A program made the translations under genes and the position numbers. DNA of 64,000 bases, from assembly GCA_949299545.1 (NCBI GenBank), contig CASGAM010000026.1, forward strand, positions 105,682 to 169,681, written 5' to 3'. Shown one piece after another: positions 31,777 through 38,004 of the stretch. Origin of the DNA: an uncultured Prevotellaceae bacterium (lineage in GTDB: Bacteria > Bacteroidota > Bacteroidia > Bacteroidales > Bacteroidaceae). The notes below the pieces were generated by a model. It did no database searches. It was given only the letters and a program-made list of their open reading frames with translations, and was not told the DNA's origin. How positions within the stretch are numbered: the stretch's first letter is position 1; each line of letters starts with the position of its first letter.

Positions 31777-32445
31777 TTATCGTTGATTTTGTACTGTTTC
31801 AGCATAATATTGCTGGAAAGCATAAAACAGACATTTGGCCAGTTTCTTCCGGCCTCGTCTGGACTTGATGAATTTTTCCTCTTCCTTGTTGGAGATAAAC
31901 CCCAATTCTGTTAAAACAGCCGGCATGTTTGTTTCACGCAAAACGGCTAAGTTGCCTGTTTTAACCCCTCTGTTTTCACGTTCCGCGAAATATGTATACT
32001 GGAATTGTATCAGATTGGCTAACCGTTCGCTTGCCGTGCCTTTTGCAGCAGGGTGGATGAATGTTTCGGTGCCTTCTGCCCAGCCGCGAGCAGAGTTGCT
32101 GTGGATGGAGATGAATAAATCTGCATTGAAAAAGTTTGCCATGCCGGCTCTGTCTTCAAGTGTGATATATTCATCACCGGTACGCGTCATGATGACTTCA
32201 ACCTGTTTGTAGTTCTTTTTTATAAGTTTCTCGAGACTTTTAGCTGTTTTCAGGTTGATTTCCTTTTCAAGGGATTTTCGGCCGGCAGCTCCTTGGTCTC
32301 TACCTCCGTGTCCTGCGTCGATCACAAGGACGAAATCCCCACTCCCCAGCTGACGTGTTGACCGGCATGCCGAGTTCGTTAACAACAGCAAGACGGCAAT
32401 GGCAAATGGGAATGTCTTATAAAGCAATCTTTTAGATGTAGCCAT
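31777..32445 (-). CDS. N-acetylmuramoyl-L-alanine amidase (Amidase_3) lipoprotein
   Basis: A 222-aa zinc amidase that cleaves the bond between MurNAc and the stem peptide. The signal peptide ends in a lipobox (LLTNSAC, Cys at about residue 27), so the enzyme is probably membrane-anchored. The zinc ligands appear in VIDAGHGGRDQGA (His), LEKEINLKTA (Glu) and LFISIHSNSA (His); the catalytic Glu is in VLTELGFISNKEEE. It is the second gene of a unit, 20 bp after the stop of the zinc-hook coiled-coil gene. The catalytic core is complete and there is no extra binding domain. Confidence 0.93.
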   Translation of the reverse strand: MATSKRLLYKTFPFAIAVLLLLTNSACRSTRQLGSGDFVLVIDAGHGGRDQGAAGRKSLEKEINLKTAKSLEKLIKKNYKQVEVIMTRTGDEYITLEDRAGMANFFNADLFISIHSNSARGWAEGTETFIHPAAKGTASERLANLIQFQYTYFAERENRGVKTGNLAVLRETNMPAVLTELGFISNKEEEKFIKSRRGRKKLAKCLFYAFQQYYAETVQNQR

Positions 32446-32465: not shown

Positions 32466-35249
32466 TTATTGGCTAATGATTTCATTTTCTATGGCAGCCA
32501 GTTCCCGTATACTTGCCTTGTGAGCTTCAAGTCTTGACTGAAGACTTGCTATGCGCATCATCAGTATGTTTTGTTCGTTTTCAAGTTTTGCAATTTCCGC
32601 ATTGAGGAAAGCTGTCTGGTTGTCTTTATCCGGTCTCGGTGATGATGTATCTGCCTGATGGGCGGCCAAAGCTAATTGGGCGTCTTCGACCCGCATGTAT
32701 GATACACTGTTCTTTACGTCCAGTTCTCTTGCTGTTTTCCTGAGTTCGTTCCAGTTGATGTTACTGCGGAACGTTTTGTCGATGTCAGCATATTGGATGG
32801 GTGAATGTTGTGTATTATAAGATTTTATCCAAAGATCAATCGCTGAACTTTCTTTTGCAATTAAATGCTCGAGTTGTTCGTTGTTTTCTTTTAGTTGTTG
32901 CAGGCGGCCAGTTTGTATGGAAAGGATTTCTTTTAATGAATGGCATGTGAGTTCTGCTTCCTCTTTTTCTGTTTCTGCAGCGGTCAGTGCATTGAGCAGT
33001 TGTTGATTATATGCTTCAGCGTTGGTTGCTTTCAACATGTTGGCGAGATGGTTGCTTTGTTGTTTCCTGTTTTCTGTCAGGCGTTCCATCTCGTCAAACA
33101 AATTTTGTCTCTCTCTTTCCAGTTCCTGAATGGTTTGTTGCGTCAGTCTGAGAGTTCCGCTTTGCTGTATTTCCGATGTTTTGTTTTGCTGGAGCTGTTC
33201 TTTCAGACTGTTGTCAAGCTCCATTTGTTTTTGAATATAAATGTATAGGTTTTCAGGATTTTCTGACCACACATTCAACCAGTTTGAGATACCCATCATT
33301 TGGTCTATTTCTTCATAAAGGCGGCTATAGTTACTGTTGACGCGGGAATAGGACTGTTGCAAATGTTCTACCTTATAAGCCAGGACCTGGCAACCTGTAT
33401 TAACTTCGTTGAGCCTGATGGTGAGATCGTTCTTTTCCATTTCCTTCGCAGAAAGTTTTTCGTTGAGTGTATTAATGTTTGATTGGTGGAAATTGAAGTT
33501 ATCCAGGTCTTTTTGGGCCTTTTCTGCGTCAATGCCGGTTTTTTCAACTAATTGCCGAATCATAATGAGTCGGGCTTCATAATTGGCATTAGTAGTGCAT
33601 TCGTTCAAAGAACGGTCTAATGAACTGAATTGTTTCCAGCCTGTGATATTTTCTTGCTGAAGTTCTTTGTAAATGATAAGTGCTTGGCAGGCTATTTCCA
33701 GCTTCCCTTCTTCTTTGGCCAATTCTTTTTTTTGCTCGTCAAGCAGAAATGTTTTGTTCTTTAACTCGTTGTTTATTTGATTGAATTCGGTTTTAATTTC
33801 TCCAATAAGTTTGCTTTGTTCTATGAAAGAGTCGGCGTGGTAGGGGTGATGTGTTGCACCACATACACTGCAGTTTACGCCTTCTCGCAAATCTTTTCTC
33901 ATCTGCATGACGTCCTGGCTTTTACTGAGCGTATAGGCGTATTTCAATTCTTCGTTTTGTTTTTCCAAACCGGATACTTCTGGTTGCAGTTGTTTGATAT
34001 TCGATTTAAGGTTTTCTATATGAAGTTGTATGCGTGTGACTTCTTGCTTTTTATCTTCAATTAAGAGGAATGTTTTGGTGATTTGTTTCCATAAACGCTC
34101 AGCATTGGTCAACTGTTCTTTTTGACTCTTTAGTGCCATGGCGCGTTGTTGCAGCATGTAGCTGTTCATGCCGACAATACTTTTTTGATGTACGGCCAGC
34201 TCGCTTTGCAGGGTATTGATTTGTGCGTCAATTTCTTGTGATTTTACGAAAAGTTTATTAAGTTTTTCGTTTTGTTCTGTCTGTTTTTTGATGGCATCCT
34301 CAAGCTGTATTTTCAGTTGCTCCTTTCTGTTGTTTTGATTCTGAAGGAATTGCAGTTTGGCTAACAGTACATCGCCTTTCTCGGTCATTCTTTGTAGCCG
34401 GCCCATGTTTTGAATTTGCGAGCGTAGTTCCGATTCTACGTGGCGTGTTTTTTCTAAATCGTTCAGTTGCTCGTTTGCTGTTTGCTGCAAATCGTTCAAA
34501 CGCGTATTCCTATCAGAAAGCGTATCTTGTATTTCTTGTATTCTGGCGTCAAGGTAGGCTATCCTTTCTTCTGTACGGTGTGCTTCTGCAATTCTGCTTT
34601 GCTGTTGGAACAGGTTTTGCAGGCATTCAGAGTATTGATTCTTCCTGTTTTCCGATTCAGTGCGGGCTTTGTCAAATTCTTTTTGGAGATTATTTATTTC
34701 CTTTTGGGTGGCATTTAACTCTGATAGCAACCTTTCATGATCCTCTTTAAACAGCTTTATATGTTCATAGTTGCTGAGTATTGCTTCGTAGTCTTCAAAT
34801 CTCTCTAAAGATTGTATGTCATTCAACCGTATGTTGTATTCTTTGTTTATTTGGAAGTATGCTTGCTTGCATTTGTTGAGAACTGAATTGAGCTGTTCGT
34901 ACTTATACAGCCATTTTTTCTGTTCGTTCAGACTTTCAATGGCTTGGCTCAGATTCCTTAGCTTGGTTTGTGACAGGCGAAGTTGGTTCTGTATGTTGTC
35001 TTGTTCGCCTTGGTCTAAAATGTGTTCCCCGATTTTTAATTTTTTGGTTTCCAATGAGGATAAATGCCGGAACAAACGTTTTAATTCGTCCGGCATGGAC
35101 GTTTGATAATGTTTCAGGAACCATTGTTCAGCAGCCATTTCCGGTGTTTCCGGCAGGTTGCTTGTTATGATATTTGTATCTGCAGTTTCTTTCGGGGCGA
35201 TATGTTGTCTGTCTGGAACGATGCTGTTGTCTTTTTGAAAGAATTTCAT
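32466..35249 (-). CDS. headless SbcC/Rad50-like coiled-coil protein with central zinc hook
   Basis: A long, almost wholly coiled-coil protein of unknown function. The frame opens at 35273 (935 aa), but a -7 box ends one base before that ATG, so I prefer the ninth codon's ATG at 35247-35249 (927 aa). Heptad-like Leu/Gln/Glu-rich helices run from about residue 75 to 460 and again from 490 to the end. Between them lies GVNCSVCGATHHPYH, which resembles the CxxC zinc hook of SbcC and Rad50 (CPLCG..HP). The first Cys is residue 460 of 927, almost the exact middle, as expected if the two arms fold back antiparallel. No Walker A, signature or Walker B motif is present at either end, so it has no SMC-type ATPase head. 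There is no signal peptide, so it should be cytoplasmic. It precedes an amidase gene by 20 bp. Confidence 0.8.
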   Translation of the reverse strand: MKFFQKDNSIVPDRQHIAPKETADTNIITSNLPETPEMAAEQWFLKHYQTSMPDELKRLFRHLSSLETKKLKIGEHILDQGEQDNIQNQLRLSQTKLRNLSQAIESLNEQKKWLYKYEQLNSVLNKCKQAYFQINKEYNIRLNDIQSLERFEDYEAILSNYEHIKLFKEDHERLLSELNATQKEINNLQKEFDKARTESENRKNQYSECLQNLFQQQSRIAEAHRTEERIAYLDARIQEIQDTLSDRNTRLNDLQQTANEQLNDLEKTRHVESELRSQIQNMGRLQRMTEKGDVLLAKLQFLQNQNNRKEQLKIQLEDAIKKQTEQNEKLNKLFVKSQEIDAQINTLQSELAVHQKSIVGMNSYMLQQRAMALKSQKEQLTNAERLWKQITKTFLLIEDKKQEVTRIQLHIENLKSNIKQLQPEVSGLEKQNEELKYAYTLSKSQDVMQMRKDLREGVNCSVCGATHHPYHADSFIEQSKLIGEIKTEFNQINNELKNKTFLLDEQKKELAKEEGKLEIACQALIIYKELQQENITGWKQFSSLDRSLNECTTNANYEARLIMIRQLVEKTGIDAEKAQKDLDNFNFHQSNINTLNEKLSAKEMEKNDLTIRLNEVNTGCQVLAYKVEHLQQSYSRVNSNYSRLYEEIDQMMGISNWLNVWSENPENLYIYIQKQMELDNSLKEQLQQNKTSEIQQSGTLRLTQQTIQELERERQNLFDEMERLTENRKQQSNHLANMLKATNAEAYNQQLLNALTAAETEKEEAELTCHSLKEILSIQTGRLQQLKENNEQLEHLIAKESSAIDLWIKSYNTQHSPIQYADIDKTFRSNINWNELRKTARELDVKNSVSYMRVEDAQLALAAHQADTSSPRPDKDNQTAFLNAEIAKLENEQNILMMRIASLQSRLEAHKASIRELAAIENEIISQ

Positions 35250-35274
35250 ACGATTGTATTCTGTGTTTGTCATG

Positions 35275-35282
35275 CAAAAGTA
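35275..35282 (-). promoter_or_regulatory. -7 box abutting first ATG of zinc-hook coiled-coil gene
   Basis: TACTTTTG on the minus strand matches TAnnTTTG and is separated from the first possible ATG (35273) by one base. The transcript would begin at or after that ATG, which favours the start at 35249. Confidence 0.5.
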
Positions 35283-35368: not shown

Positions 35369-35402
35369 AAATTAAAACGAACTAATTTAAAAAATTATGA
35401 TT

Positions 35403-36407
35403 ATGAAAAAGTATTTTTTCTTGGCAGCTTGCTGTATGCTCGCTGTAGGTTTTACCGCATGCGACAATGGTGACGATGACAACGGAGACGAAGGAAATGG
35501 AAGCGGAACATCAGTCAATGGTGGAAGCGGAACATCAGCCAACAGCACTCCAAATGTAAGTGAATCTTTAGGTATCGAACATCTTGTTACCTCAATAAGA
35601 GGAGGCGAAAATTCTACCTTTCATTACAGCAACGGAAAAATGACAGATGGTGTAACAGACGGCAATACTAATTTTGTCATTACAGAGAACCCTCTTAAAA
35701 TCAATATGTCTTATATTAGTGAATATGAAAGTGAAAACTCTAACTTCACCGATATAAAGACCAACAGCAATGGCTTCATTACTTATTTAAAAGGCCAAAT
35801 AGAAGAAGTATACTACGATGATACGTACAATAGCACTGGAGAAGCCAATCTTGAATACGATGGAGACGGCCATCTTATAAAGATGACCACTTACGCAACA
35901 GAAGACGGTTATAGCTATACTACTCCTACCACTTTCACATGGGTGAACGGTAACCTGACAGAAATGGTCAACAAATATGAAGAAAGTGAATACGGTATGA
36001 CATTCTCAGAGACTACAACTTATACGTTTGAATATAACGATAACACCGCAGACAATCCAAATCCTGGCATTTTCTTTGAGGGTATGGATTACGAACTGTA
36101 CGACTTCATGTGGTATGCAGGCTTGCTGGGTAAACATACAAAAAACATCCCTACCAAGATTACAAGAAAATCTGTTGAAAAAGAAAACGGCGAGATTACT
36201 TATGAATATAGCTGGTCAGAAACCGTTGATGTTACCTACAATCCAAATGGATCTGTAGCCTCTATCACTTATACTGAAACTAACAACGGTTATCAGTCAA
36301 CCGTTTACTACGACTACAACGGAGAGCAGGCAGAATCGAACATCCAGGCCGGTATCAGCAGCAAAACCATAAAATCACCGCGCAAGATGCATCGCCACAG
36401 AAAATAA
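35403..36407 (+). CDS. DUF4595-type lipoprotein
   Basis: A 334-aa lipoprotein from the ATG at 35403 (an ATG two codons earlier at 35397 is possible). The signal peptide ends in a lipobox (AVGFTAC). A low-complexity Asp/Gly/Asn/Ser linker follows, containing a direct duplication of GSGTS-VNG (24-bp DNA repeat near 35500-35545). The rest is beta-rich with YD-repeat-like units (LEYDGDGHLIKMTTYAT, FTWVNGNLTEMVNKYE, DVTYNPNGSVASITYTE) and resembles DUF4595. It is probably surface or periplasmic; the function is unknown. The tail is basic (SPRKMHRHRK). Confidence 0.82.
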   Translation: MKKYFFLAACCMLAVGFTACDNGDDDNGDEGNGSGTSVNGGSGTSANSTPNVSESLGIEHLVTSIRGGENSTFHYSNGKMTDGVTDGNTNFVITENPLKINMSYISEYESENSNFTDIKTNSNGFITYLKGQIEEVYYDDTYNSTGEANLEYDGDGHLIKMTTYATEDGYSYTTPTTFTWVNGNLTEMVNKYEESEYGMTFSETTTYTFEYNDNTADNPNPGIFFEGMDYELYDFMWYAGLLGKHTKNIPTKITRKSVEKENGEITYEYSWSETVDVTYNPNGSVASITYTETNNGYQSTVYYDYNGEQAESNIQAGISSKTIKSPRKMHRHRK

Positions 36408-36606: not shown

Positions 36607-36639
36607 CATTATAGAAATAATTAATAATAAGTGAAGACA

Positions 36640-38004
36640 ATGGCATCAAAACCAGGAATACCGAAAGGAACACGTGACTTTTCACCGGTTGAAATGGCGA
36701 AAAGAAATTATATTTTCGATACGATTCGTAGTGTTTACGCACTATATGGATTTCAACAAATAGAGACCCCGGCGATGGAGAACTTATCGACCTTAATGGG
36801 TAAATATGGTGAAGAAGGAGATAAGCTCCTTTTTAAGATTTTAAATTCCGGTAATTTCATGGCCGGTGTCGAATTTGATGAATTACAAGAGGGACAAACA
36901 AATAAATTGGCAGCAAGGTTCTGTGAGAAAGGGTTGCGGTATGATTTGACTGTGCCTTTTGCACGTTATGTCGTGCAGCACCGTGATGAATTGACTTTAC
37001 CGTTTAAACGTTATCAGATTCAGCCGGTATGGCGTGCCGACCGTCCGCAGAAAGGACGTTACCGTGAGTTTTACCAATGTGACGCCGATGTAGTGGGAAG
37101 CGATTCTTTGCTTAACGAGGTGGAATTAATACAAATTATCGATACGGTATTCTCAAAGTTTGGCATCAGGGTTTGTATTAAGATGAATAACCGCAAGATT
37201 TTAACAGGTATAGCGGAAATAATTGGCGCGGCAGACAAGATCGTGGATATTACGGTCGCTATAGACAAATTAGATAAAATAGGTCTTGAGAATGTGAATA
37301 CCGAATTAGCAGCATGCGGCATAGCTCAAGAGGCCATCGATAAATTGCAGCCTATTATCTGCATGAAAGGTAATAATGATGAAAAGTTGGCAGTTATGCG
37401 TGAAACCTTGTCAGAAAGTGAAATAGGCTTGAAAGGCATTGATGAATGCTTTTTTGTGTTGAAAACATTGGAAAAATTGGCATTACGGAATCAAGTGGAG
37501 TTGGATTTGACGTTGGCACGAGGATTGAATTATTATACAGGCTGTATTTTTGAGGTCAAGGCATTGGATGTCGAGATTGGAAGTATTACAGGGGGAGGCC
37601 GTTATGACAACCTTACCGGAATATTCGGCATGCCGGGTTTAAGTGGCGTAGGTATTTCATTTGGGGCGGATCGTATTTTTGATGTGTTGAATCAGCTTGA
37701 TTTGTATCCTGAAGAGACTGGCGTTGGAACAGATTTGATGTTTGTGAATTTCGGGGAGCGAGAGGCCGCTTTTTCTCTTGCCGCCATGACAAAAATACGT
37801 ATGGCGGGCATACGATGCGAGATATTTCCCGACAGTGCCAAGATGAAAAAACAAATGAGTTATGCTAACGCTCGGAATATACCGTTTGTGGCTATTGTGG
37901 GCGAGGATGAGATGAAAGAAGGAAAGATAATGCTCAAAGATATGGTTAAGGGCGAACAGCGTTTGGTGACTCCTGAAGAATTGATAAGTTGCGTTAAATC
38001 TTAA
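36640..38004 (+). CDS. hisS: histidyl-tRNA synthetase
   Basis: A class II aminoacyl-tRNA synthetase charging tRNA-His, 454 aa from the ATG at 36640; a GTG at 36631 would add three residues. Motif 1 is near [13 protein letters not shown] and [13 protein letters not shown]. Motif 2 is [20 protein letters not shown], then [12 protein letters not shown]. The histidine A signature [19 protein letters not shown] and [13 protein letters not shown] (motif 3 region) follow. The C-terminal anticodon-binding domain is present ([17 protein letters not shown]). It is a single-gene unit. Confidence 0.97.

Follow-up and report, generated by a model that had tools for sequence, protein, structure and literature searches.

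The window considered here, a stretch of 64,000 nucleotides from an uncultured Prevotellaceae bacterium (assembly GCA_949299545.1, contig CASGAM010000026.1, positions 105,682 to 169,681 of the forward strand), carries on its minus strand a gene whose product resembles the coiled-coil arms and zinc hook of SbcC/Rad50 without the ATPase head. We refer to this gene and its like as headless. The source genome belongs to genus group g1, which is Paraprevotella and includes P. clara YIT 11840 and P. xylaniphila YIT 11841. The features of the locus are:

32466..35249, minus strand: headless SbcC-arm gene, 927 residues from M9, stop codon included
35028..35144, minus strand: predicted helix-loop-helix (residues 36-74), a homolog of the Rad50-binding domain at the SbcD C-terminus, from hhalign, an SbcD-tail profile and the helices of the structural model
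33921..35012, minus strand: N-terminal coiled-coil arm (residues 80-443), from the model and alignment to SbcC arms
33843..33872, minus strand: zinc-hook motif CSVCGATHHP (residues 460-469), present in 18 of the 18 homologs of set A1
32472..33830, minus strand: C-terminal coiled-coil arm (residues 474-926) with the conserved base block W807..R837, from the model and alignment
31777..32445, minus strand: N-acetylmuramoyl-L-alanine amidase (Amidase_3, Pfam E 9e-51), downstream neighbor in Paraprevotella only
36631..38004, plus strand: hisS, long-standing divergent neighbor, named by reading the open reading frame (ORF); a similar gene stands at 54 of 80 loci
35275..35282, minus strand: TAnnTTTG promoter-like box

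The complete ORF (32466-35273, minus strand) would encode 935 residues. Translation most likely begins at M9 (position 35249), giving a protein of 927 residues, because a start of the form M[K/N/I/H/S][F/L]F occurs at the equivalent place in all 18 A1 homologs (found with that very pattern) and because the TAnnTTTG box, which we take to be the Bacteroides -7 promoter motif, abuts the first ATG of the longer frame. An AlphaFold2 model built on 35 aligned sequences (mean predicted local distance difference test score, pLDDT, 81.1; predicted template modeling score 0.31) is all helix with no strand, with helices at residues 36-48 and 54-74, a coil at 80-443, a short helix at 445-452 and a second coil at 474-926; confidence is low for residues 1-34 and for the hook loop at about 453-473. 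The model thus agrees with the initial annotation, which had described two coiled-coil arms on either side of a CxxC hook, with CSVCGATHHP lying between the two coils.

The arms of the window protein are, as judged by alignment, homologous to those of full-length SbcC proteins of related Bacteroidaceae, with both ATPase lobes missing. Residues 84-924 of the 935-residue frame align with the SbcC of genome G032 at 26% identity (E 8e-66). That SbcC is 1253 residues long, with AAA_23 at 5-247 and SbcC_Walker_B at 1153-1209, and the matched part runs, by arithmetic from the alignment, from about 231 to 1071, so that the missing parts are, to within some residues, the two ATPase lobes. Neither the N-lobe profile nor the C-lobe profile of SbcC matches any of 110 headless entries (the window protein included), while both match all 41 full-length relatives, and it is on these profiles that the absence of the lobes rests, an earlier Walker B pattern having been set aside as it misses all 41 full-length relatives. 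A pattern search of the window protein found neither a Walker A nor a signature motif, and no SbcD adjoins the gene in the window. Pfam assigns the window protein no family, so neither an ATPase lobe nor a metallophosphoesterase nuclease domain, and assigns none above the curated cut-off to 35 homologs. Matches in NCBIfam are weak and confined to coiled coils, the best reaching 28.6 bits where the cut-off is 300; PADLOC yields only matches below cut-off (LmuB 16.9 bits, JetC 13.1 bits), and PDB sequence searches return generic coiled coils; a contig search with the single window protein as query found no relatives, and a profile search succeeded instead. The proposal of the initial annotation that this is an SbcC/Rad50-like arm with no head at either end and no sbcD-like nuclease beside it is therefore upheld, with Pfam, NCBIfam and the lobe profiles all silent on an ATPase head.

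What that annotation had missed are an N-terminus derived from SbcD and the repeated loss of heads. At their N-terminus the headless proteins have a motif (TPEMAAEQWFLKHYQTSMPDELKRLFRHL in the window) that resembles the extreme C-terminus of SbcD, whose gene lies directly upstream of sbcC in related genomes that bear SbcCD. In single hhalign comparisons the headless tails matched the tails of all 19 SbcD proteins with 91.8% probability (E 7e-7), and those of 16 of them (L063, L065 and L067 left out) with 95.5% (E 1e-8). A profile of SbcD tails, built from groups g13, g16 and g50 only, matches 36 of 106 headless entries at an independent E-value (i-E) below 0.01, as against none of 594 background ORFs, the best match reaching i-E 8e-11 over residues 18-69; at i-E up to 1 the counts are 45 of 106 and 1 of 594 neighboring ORFs (i-E 1.0). 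The headless entries contain duplicates (98 entries represent 81 different genes), and the 45 matching entries correspond to 29 genes: 17 are the full Paraprevotella set, and of the remaining 12 only four fall below 0.01. For the window protein itself the match covers residues 36-61 at 11.6 bits (i-E 0.012), and the g16 headless proteins and L233 have no match to this profile. In the reverse direction a headless profile matches the SbcD C-termini of L193, L197, L199, L201 and L202 at 13-16 bits.

The SbcD profile aligns with the ends of Escherichia coli SbcD (6s6v, to residue 393) and Thermotoga maritima Mre11 (3qg5, to residue 376), and the relevant passages of two structural papers describe this end region as a helix-loop-helix in contact with the coiled-coil base of Rad50 (PMC7260605, PMC3175470). 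By this homology, residues 36-74 of the window protein are a relic of the Rad50-binding helix-loop-helix at the C-terminus of SbcD. Comparison of sequences shows the protein as a whole to be the descendant of an sbcD-sbcC pair, in which the SbcD helix-loop-helix, the SbcC arms and the hook have been kept and the nuclease, the capping domain and both lobes are gone.

Headless genes are widespread in the family. They occur in 17 of 18 Paraprevotella genomes, the lone genome without one being 70% complete, and in many uncultured Bacteroidaceae. Matches to the profile at E 1e-20 or better were found in 97 of the 399 family genomes drawn, in 5 of 30 genera (g1 17, g11 32, g13 16, g16 31, g50 1); 52 of these loci were read, plus G032 and G029. 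As far as read, g1 and g11 are headless, and g13, g16 and g50 have mostly full-length SbcC of about 1195-1320 residues (L205, at a contig end, is not counted as full-length); 26 other g11 matches were called headless by open-frame length alone (866-967 residues), except G027, which was read as L018.

Heads have been lost more than once, and a single origin of the headless forms is rejected. In a tree of 75 rows, which leaves out L202 (probably an antisense ORF), five outgroup rows and the near-duplicates L214, L216, L195, L225 and L004, the Paraprevotella proteins and the named headless proteins form one clade (clade 1, 98%), including the hookless L237 and L238 at hisS. The headless L224, L227 and L228 of g16 group instead with the intact L223, L229 and L232 (100%). 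Forcing these three together with clade 1 is rejected by the approximately unbiased test (p-AU 5.9e-64), as is forcing all headless rows together (p-AU 0.0004), p-values that are weakened by groups having been named after the tree was viewed and by some long branches. Constraining L233 to clade 1 gives p-AU 0.0155, subject to the same caveats and in quick trees that place L233 and the hookless rows less surely. On the 75-row tree, the intact, decayed and headless states require a minimum of 8 changes. The headless forms also lie at different loci: clade 1 is found at hisS, L224, L227 and L228 beside an nrdD-like gene, L233 beside a nusA-like one, and L235 and L236 beside an OstA-like one, names that come from reading ORFs rather than from profile matches. 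Upstream of the L224, L227 and L228 genes, in the same orientation, are the nrdD-like gene and a short ORF.

Intermediate states exist as well. Six of the 41 full-length relatives from g13, g16 and g50 (L069, L208, L209, L220, L230 and L231) have an open frame of 1195-1281 codons in which the ATPase motifs have decayed, with the CxxC hook retained in all six and lobes still recognizable in all 41, the decayed ones included; L208 retains Walker A and has an altered signature and Walker B. Catalytic motifs of the neighboring SbcD are lost in L209 (from the single-contig genome G120) and L069, with one lost in L220; they look intact in L208 and L230, and the SbcD of L231 is cut by the contig end. 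L069, L209 and L220 therefore each pair a decayed SbcC with an SbcD that has lost nuclease motifs, an apparently catalytically dead SbcCD still in frame.

Strong purifying selection acts on the headless gene whether or not its genome also has an intact SbcCD. Ratios of nonsynonymous to synonymous substitution (dN/dS) are 0.097, 0.080, 0.164, 0.041 and 0.152 for five of seven headless pairs of clade 1 (dS being saturated in two), the first from G012/G014, in which no SbcCD was found, and the second from G009/G017, which have SbcCD. Elsewhere the values are 0.083 for the hookless g11 pair (L237, L238), 0.111 for the g16 headless pair and 0.255 for the hookless g16 pair (L235, L236), and intact SbcC pairs give 0.140, 0.055 and 0.151; 3 of 14 pairs with saturated dS were left out, among them the sole pair of decayed SbcC. 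Two blocks of the arms are far better conserved in headless than in full-length proteins, block 91-120 at the base with identity 0.46 versus 0.21 and block 601-630 with 0.57 versus 0.18, in sets of 29 and 28 rows of differing depth (overall identity 0.36 and 0.30). In the window protein the latter block, on the C-terminal arm, contains LNEVNTGCQV. The low dN/dS and the conserved blocks are in keeping with a protein that has a function in its own right and is no mere leftover.

The zinc hook is the most conserved 30-residue block of all (451-480), with a mean pairwise identity of 0.75 in headless and 0.70 in full-length proteins. It reads C.VCGATHHP in 18 of 18 A1 members, which were found by whole-protein similarity but extracted with the hook pattern. 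In the window protein it begins at residue 468 of 935 (460 of 927), and the initial annotation, which had the position right, took its placement at the exact midpoint for a mark of the fold. The central position is a coincidence, because the first 75 or so residues derive from SbcD, the model puts the coils at 80-443 and 474-926, and the relative position of the hook ranges from 0.45 to 0.67 across 80 homologs (the high values coming from ORFs that are over-long or truncated).

The neighborhood of the gene was surveyed at 80 named loci, the best of 192 relatives from the profile scan and some of them short; one of the two scan patterns is the hook itself, so finding it in all 80 is a biased result and does not count here as proof of conservation. 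A gene for hisS is near and divergent in 54 of 80. In the window the amidase ORF begins 20 bp downstream of the headless gene on the same strand, and an amidase follows in 13 of 80 loci, all of them within the group of 16 from Paraprevotella; its place in other lineages is taken by an AraC-like gene or other genes, named by reading. The hisS side of the locus is therefore shared and the amidase linkage recent. Synteny with the amidase, as seen in the initial annotation, extends to most of Paraprevotella and to none of the other lineages among the 80 loci, and its reading as a meaningful operon partner is not supported, hisS being the older neighbor; as a general partner the amidase is rejected. 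Between hisS and the headless gene the window also has a lipoprotein-like ORF (35397-36407) with no family match over cut-off; at most other Paraprevotella loci hisS ends within about 100-200 bp of the headless start.

The headless gene can coexist with SbcCD but is often found without it. SbcC Walker B matches exceed the cut-off in 7 of 18 Paraprevotella genomes (G003, G004, G007, G008, G009, G010 and G017), and the same seven have SbcD matches. Of the 11 with no SbcC Walker B over cut-off, G001, G002, G012, G014 and G016 (96-100% complete) have no SbcD match either, and completeness in the other six is 70-85% (79% in the genome of the window). In a selection of 24 genomes carrying headless or decayed genes, an SbcC Walker B over cut-off is seen in three (G172, G262 and G288) and not in the other 21; 15 of the 17 with a completeness of 90% or more are among those without it. 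Some genomes also encode, in a frame of 1140-1150 residues, a further SbcC-like ATPase (G004:C4:105399-105674, G008:C29:24828-25103, G172:C10:73475-73750, G262:C20:42685-42960), with an SbcC_Walker_B match (E about 1e-23) far stronger than that of the SbcC beside sbcD; our guess is that it is a defense SMC.

On balance we favor the view that the window protein is an ATP-independent, zinc-dimerized rod or tether; the structural or tethering role suggested by the initial annotation is still the best guess. By analogy with Rad50, whose hook is presented as a stable dimerization module in the relevant part of PMC6969161, two copies would dimerize via Zn2+ at the hook into a long rod or V unable to use ATP. 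The helix-loop-helix, which docks on the coiled-coil root in Mre11-Rad50, would now sit in cis and cap that root, so that each dimer would have two modified ends. Such a dimer would most likely do the passive job of a tether or spacer joining two partners, whether DNA ends, sister DNA or DNA-bound proteins, which would amount to the bridging part of SbcCD minus the processing. Since relatives dropped the motor more than once, the arms are probably useful by themselves.

Several observations weigh against this picture. Four short relatives of 615-667 residues, L237 and L238 at the hisS locus of g11 and L235 and L236 of g16, lack heads and have no CxxC at all while keeping the arm ends; homologs without a conserved CxxC, which the initial annotation had named as a refutation, thus exist in these four although the cysteine pair holds throughout A1, and zinc dimerization cannot be indispensable everywhere. 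The hook loop is modeled with a pLDDT of only about 55. The tail motif is missing by pattern in 39 of 98 entries (in at least L085 only through an over-long ORF), so the helix-loop-helix is not universal, and when a headless-tail profile is run against 558 ORFs of SbcCD loci, SbcD C-termini top the list but weakly (best E 0.029). Neighbors vary between lineages with no common partner gene seen. Finally, the g11 copy L242 is divided between two frames, and one internal stop interrupts each of four g11 matches (G146, G211, G250 and G284).

These last cases, together with an origin by loss of catalytic parts, are what would be expected of a decaying, functionless SbcC pseudogene, which we consider the least probable of the alternatives: the frame is open in most species, the hook block keeps its mean pairwise identity of 0.75, and the dN/dS of clade-1 pairs (0.041-0.164) is like that of intact SbcC (0.055-0.151). 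Hardly more credible is a split complex in which a separate, head-only SbcC supplies the heads in trans. It draws no direct support, although AAA_23 proteins occur in all 11 genomes searched and some, of 434-721 residues (e.g., in G009, G014 and G016), are without assigned identity. The frames with AAA_23 over cut-off in G001, a 99% complete headless genome with no SbcC, are 557, 378 and 543 residues long, and G032, with its intact SbcC, has similar ones of 556, 378 and 548 (the last just below cut-off), so none is special to the headless state; G001, G002, G012, G014 and G016, moreover, have no match to an SbcD-type nuclease.

A cell-envelope scaffold acting with the amidase would suit the 20 bp spacing in the window and the adjacency at 13 of 16 named Paraprevotella loci, but is improbable given that the two genes adjoin at only 13 of the 80 and that the N-terminus is an SbcD tail with no signal sequence by eye (no signal-peptide program was run). 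We regard as unlikely, though less so, that the headless arm regulates SbcCD by pairing through its hook with an intact SbcC to give a one-headed, poisoned or longer complex: the conserved hook and the intact SbcC of seven Paraprevotella genomes would allow it, but 11 of the 18 have no SbcC over cut-off, five of them 96-100% complete, and the same is true of 21 of the 24 headless or decayed genomes (15 of the 17 at least 90% complete). A cytoskeletal filament-former, with hook and base serving head-to-tail assembly, has a comparably small chance; it would account for a long coiled coil with no enzymatic part and for base block 91-120 and block 601-630 being more conserved than in intact SbcC, whereas the geometry of the hook would favor discrete dimers.

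Preferring the rod or tether, we consider it probable overall that Mre11-Rad50 has been decapitated several times in the Bacteroidaceae, and that the hook arms, in one lineage fused to the docking helix-loop-helix, form a new type of structural protein, independent of ATP, that in many species has outlived SbcCD. If so, the Rad50 arms and hook serve a purpose for which the motor is not required. The share of Rad50/SbcC function that resides in the arms and hook as opposed to the ATPase is an open question usually probed with mutants; here the head has been deleted naturally more than once, also in isolates (P. clara, P. xylaniphila), and since intact, ATPase-decayed and headless forms coexist in one bacterial family, arm and hook function becomes directly testable. 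No description of a headless SbcC was found in the PMC literature, subscription papers and preprints lying outside its coverage.

Among known systems, SbcC/Rad50 shares with the window protein, by homology, the coiled-coil arms and the CxxC zinc hook, and differs in having the N-lobe (Walker A), the C-lobe (signature, Walker B) and an adjacent sbcD. SbcD/Mre11 likewise shares the C-terminal Rad50-binding helix-loop-helix but adds the nuclease and capping domains. The archaeal SMC-related proteins ASRP, ClsN and Sph are also coiled coils with a zinc hook, but in the account given in the relevant sections of PMC9389158 they have Walker A and B motifs of their own, whereas the window protein has no lobes and reaches only 28.6 of the 300 bits set as the NCBIfam cut-off. 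The layout is shared with the Mre11/Rad50 fusions, such as Mimivirus R555, in which, according to the passage of PMC3175470 that deals with them, the SbcD part precedes the SbcC part in a single chain and the helix-loop-helix region is kept in most; the window protein follows the same order while carrying neither nuclease nor ATPase.
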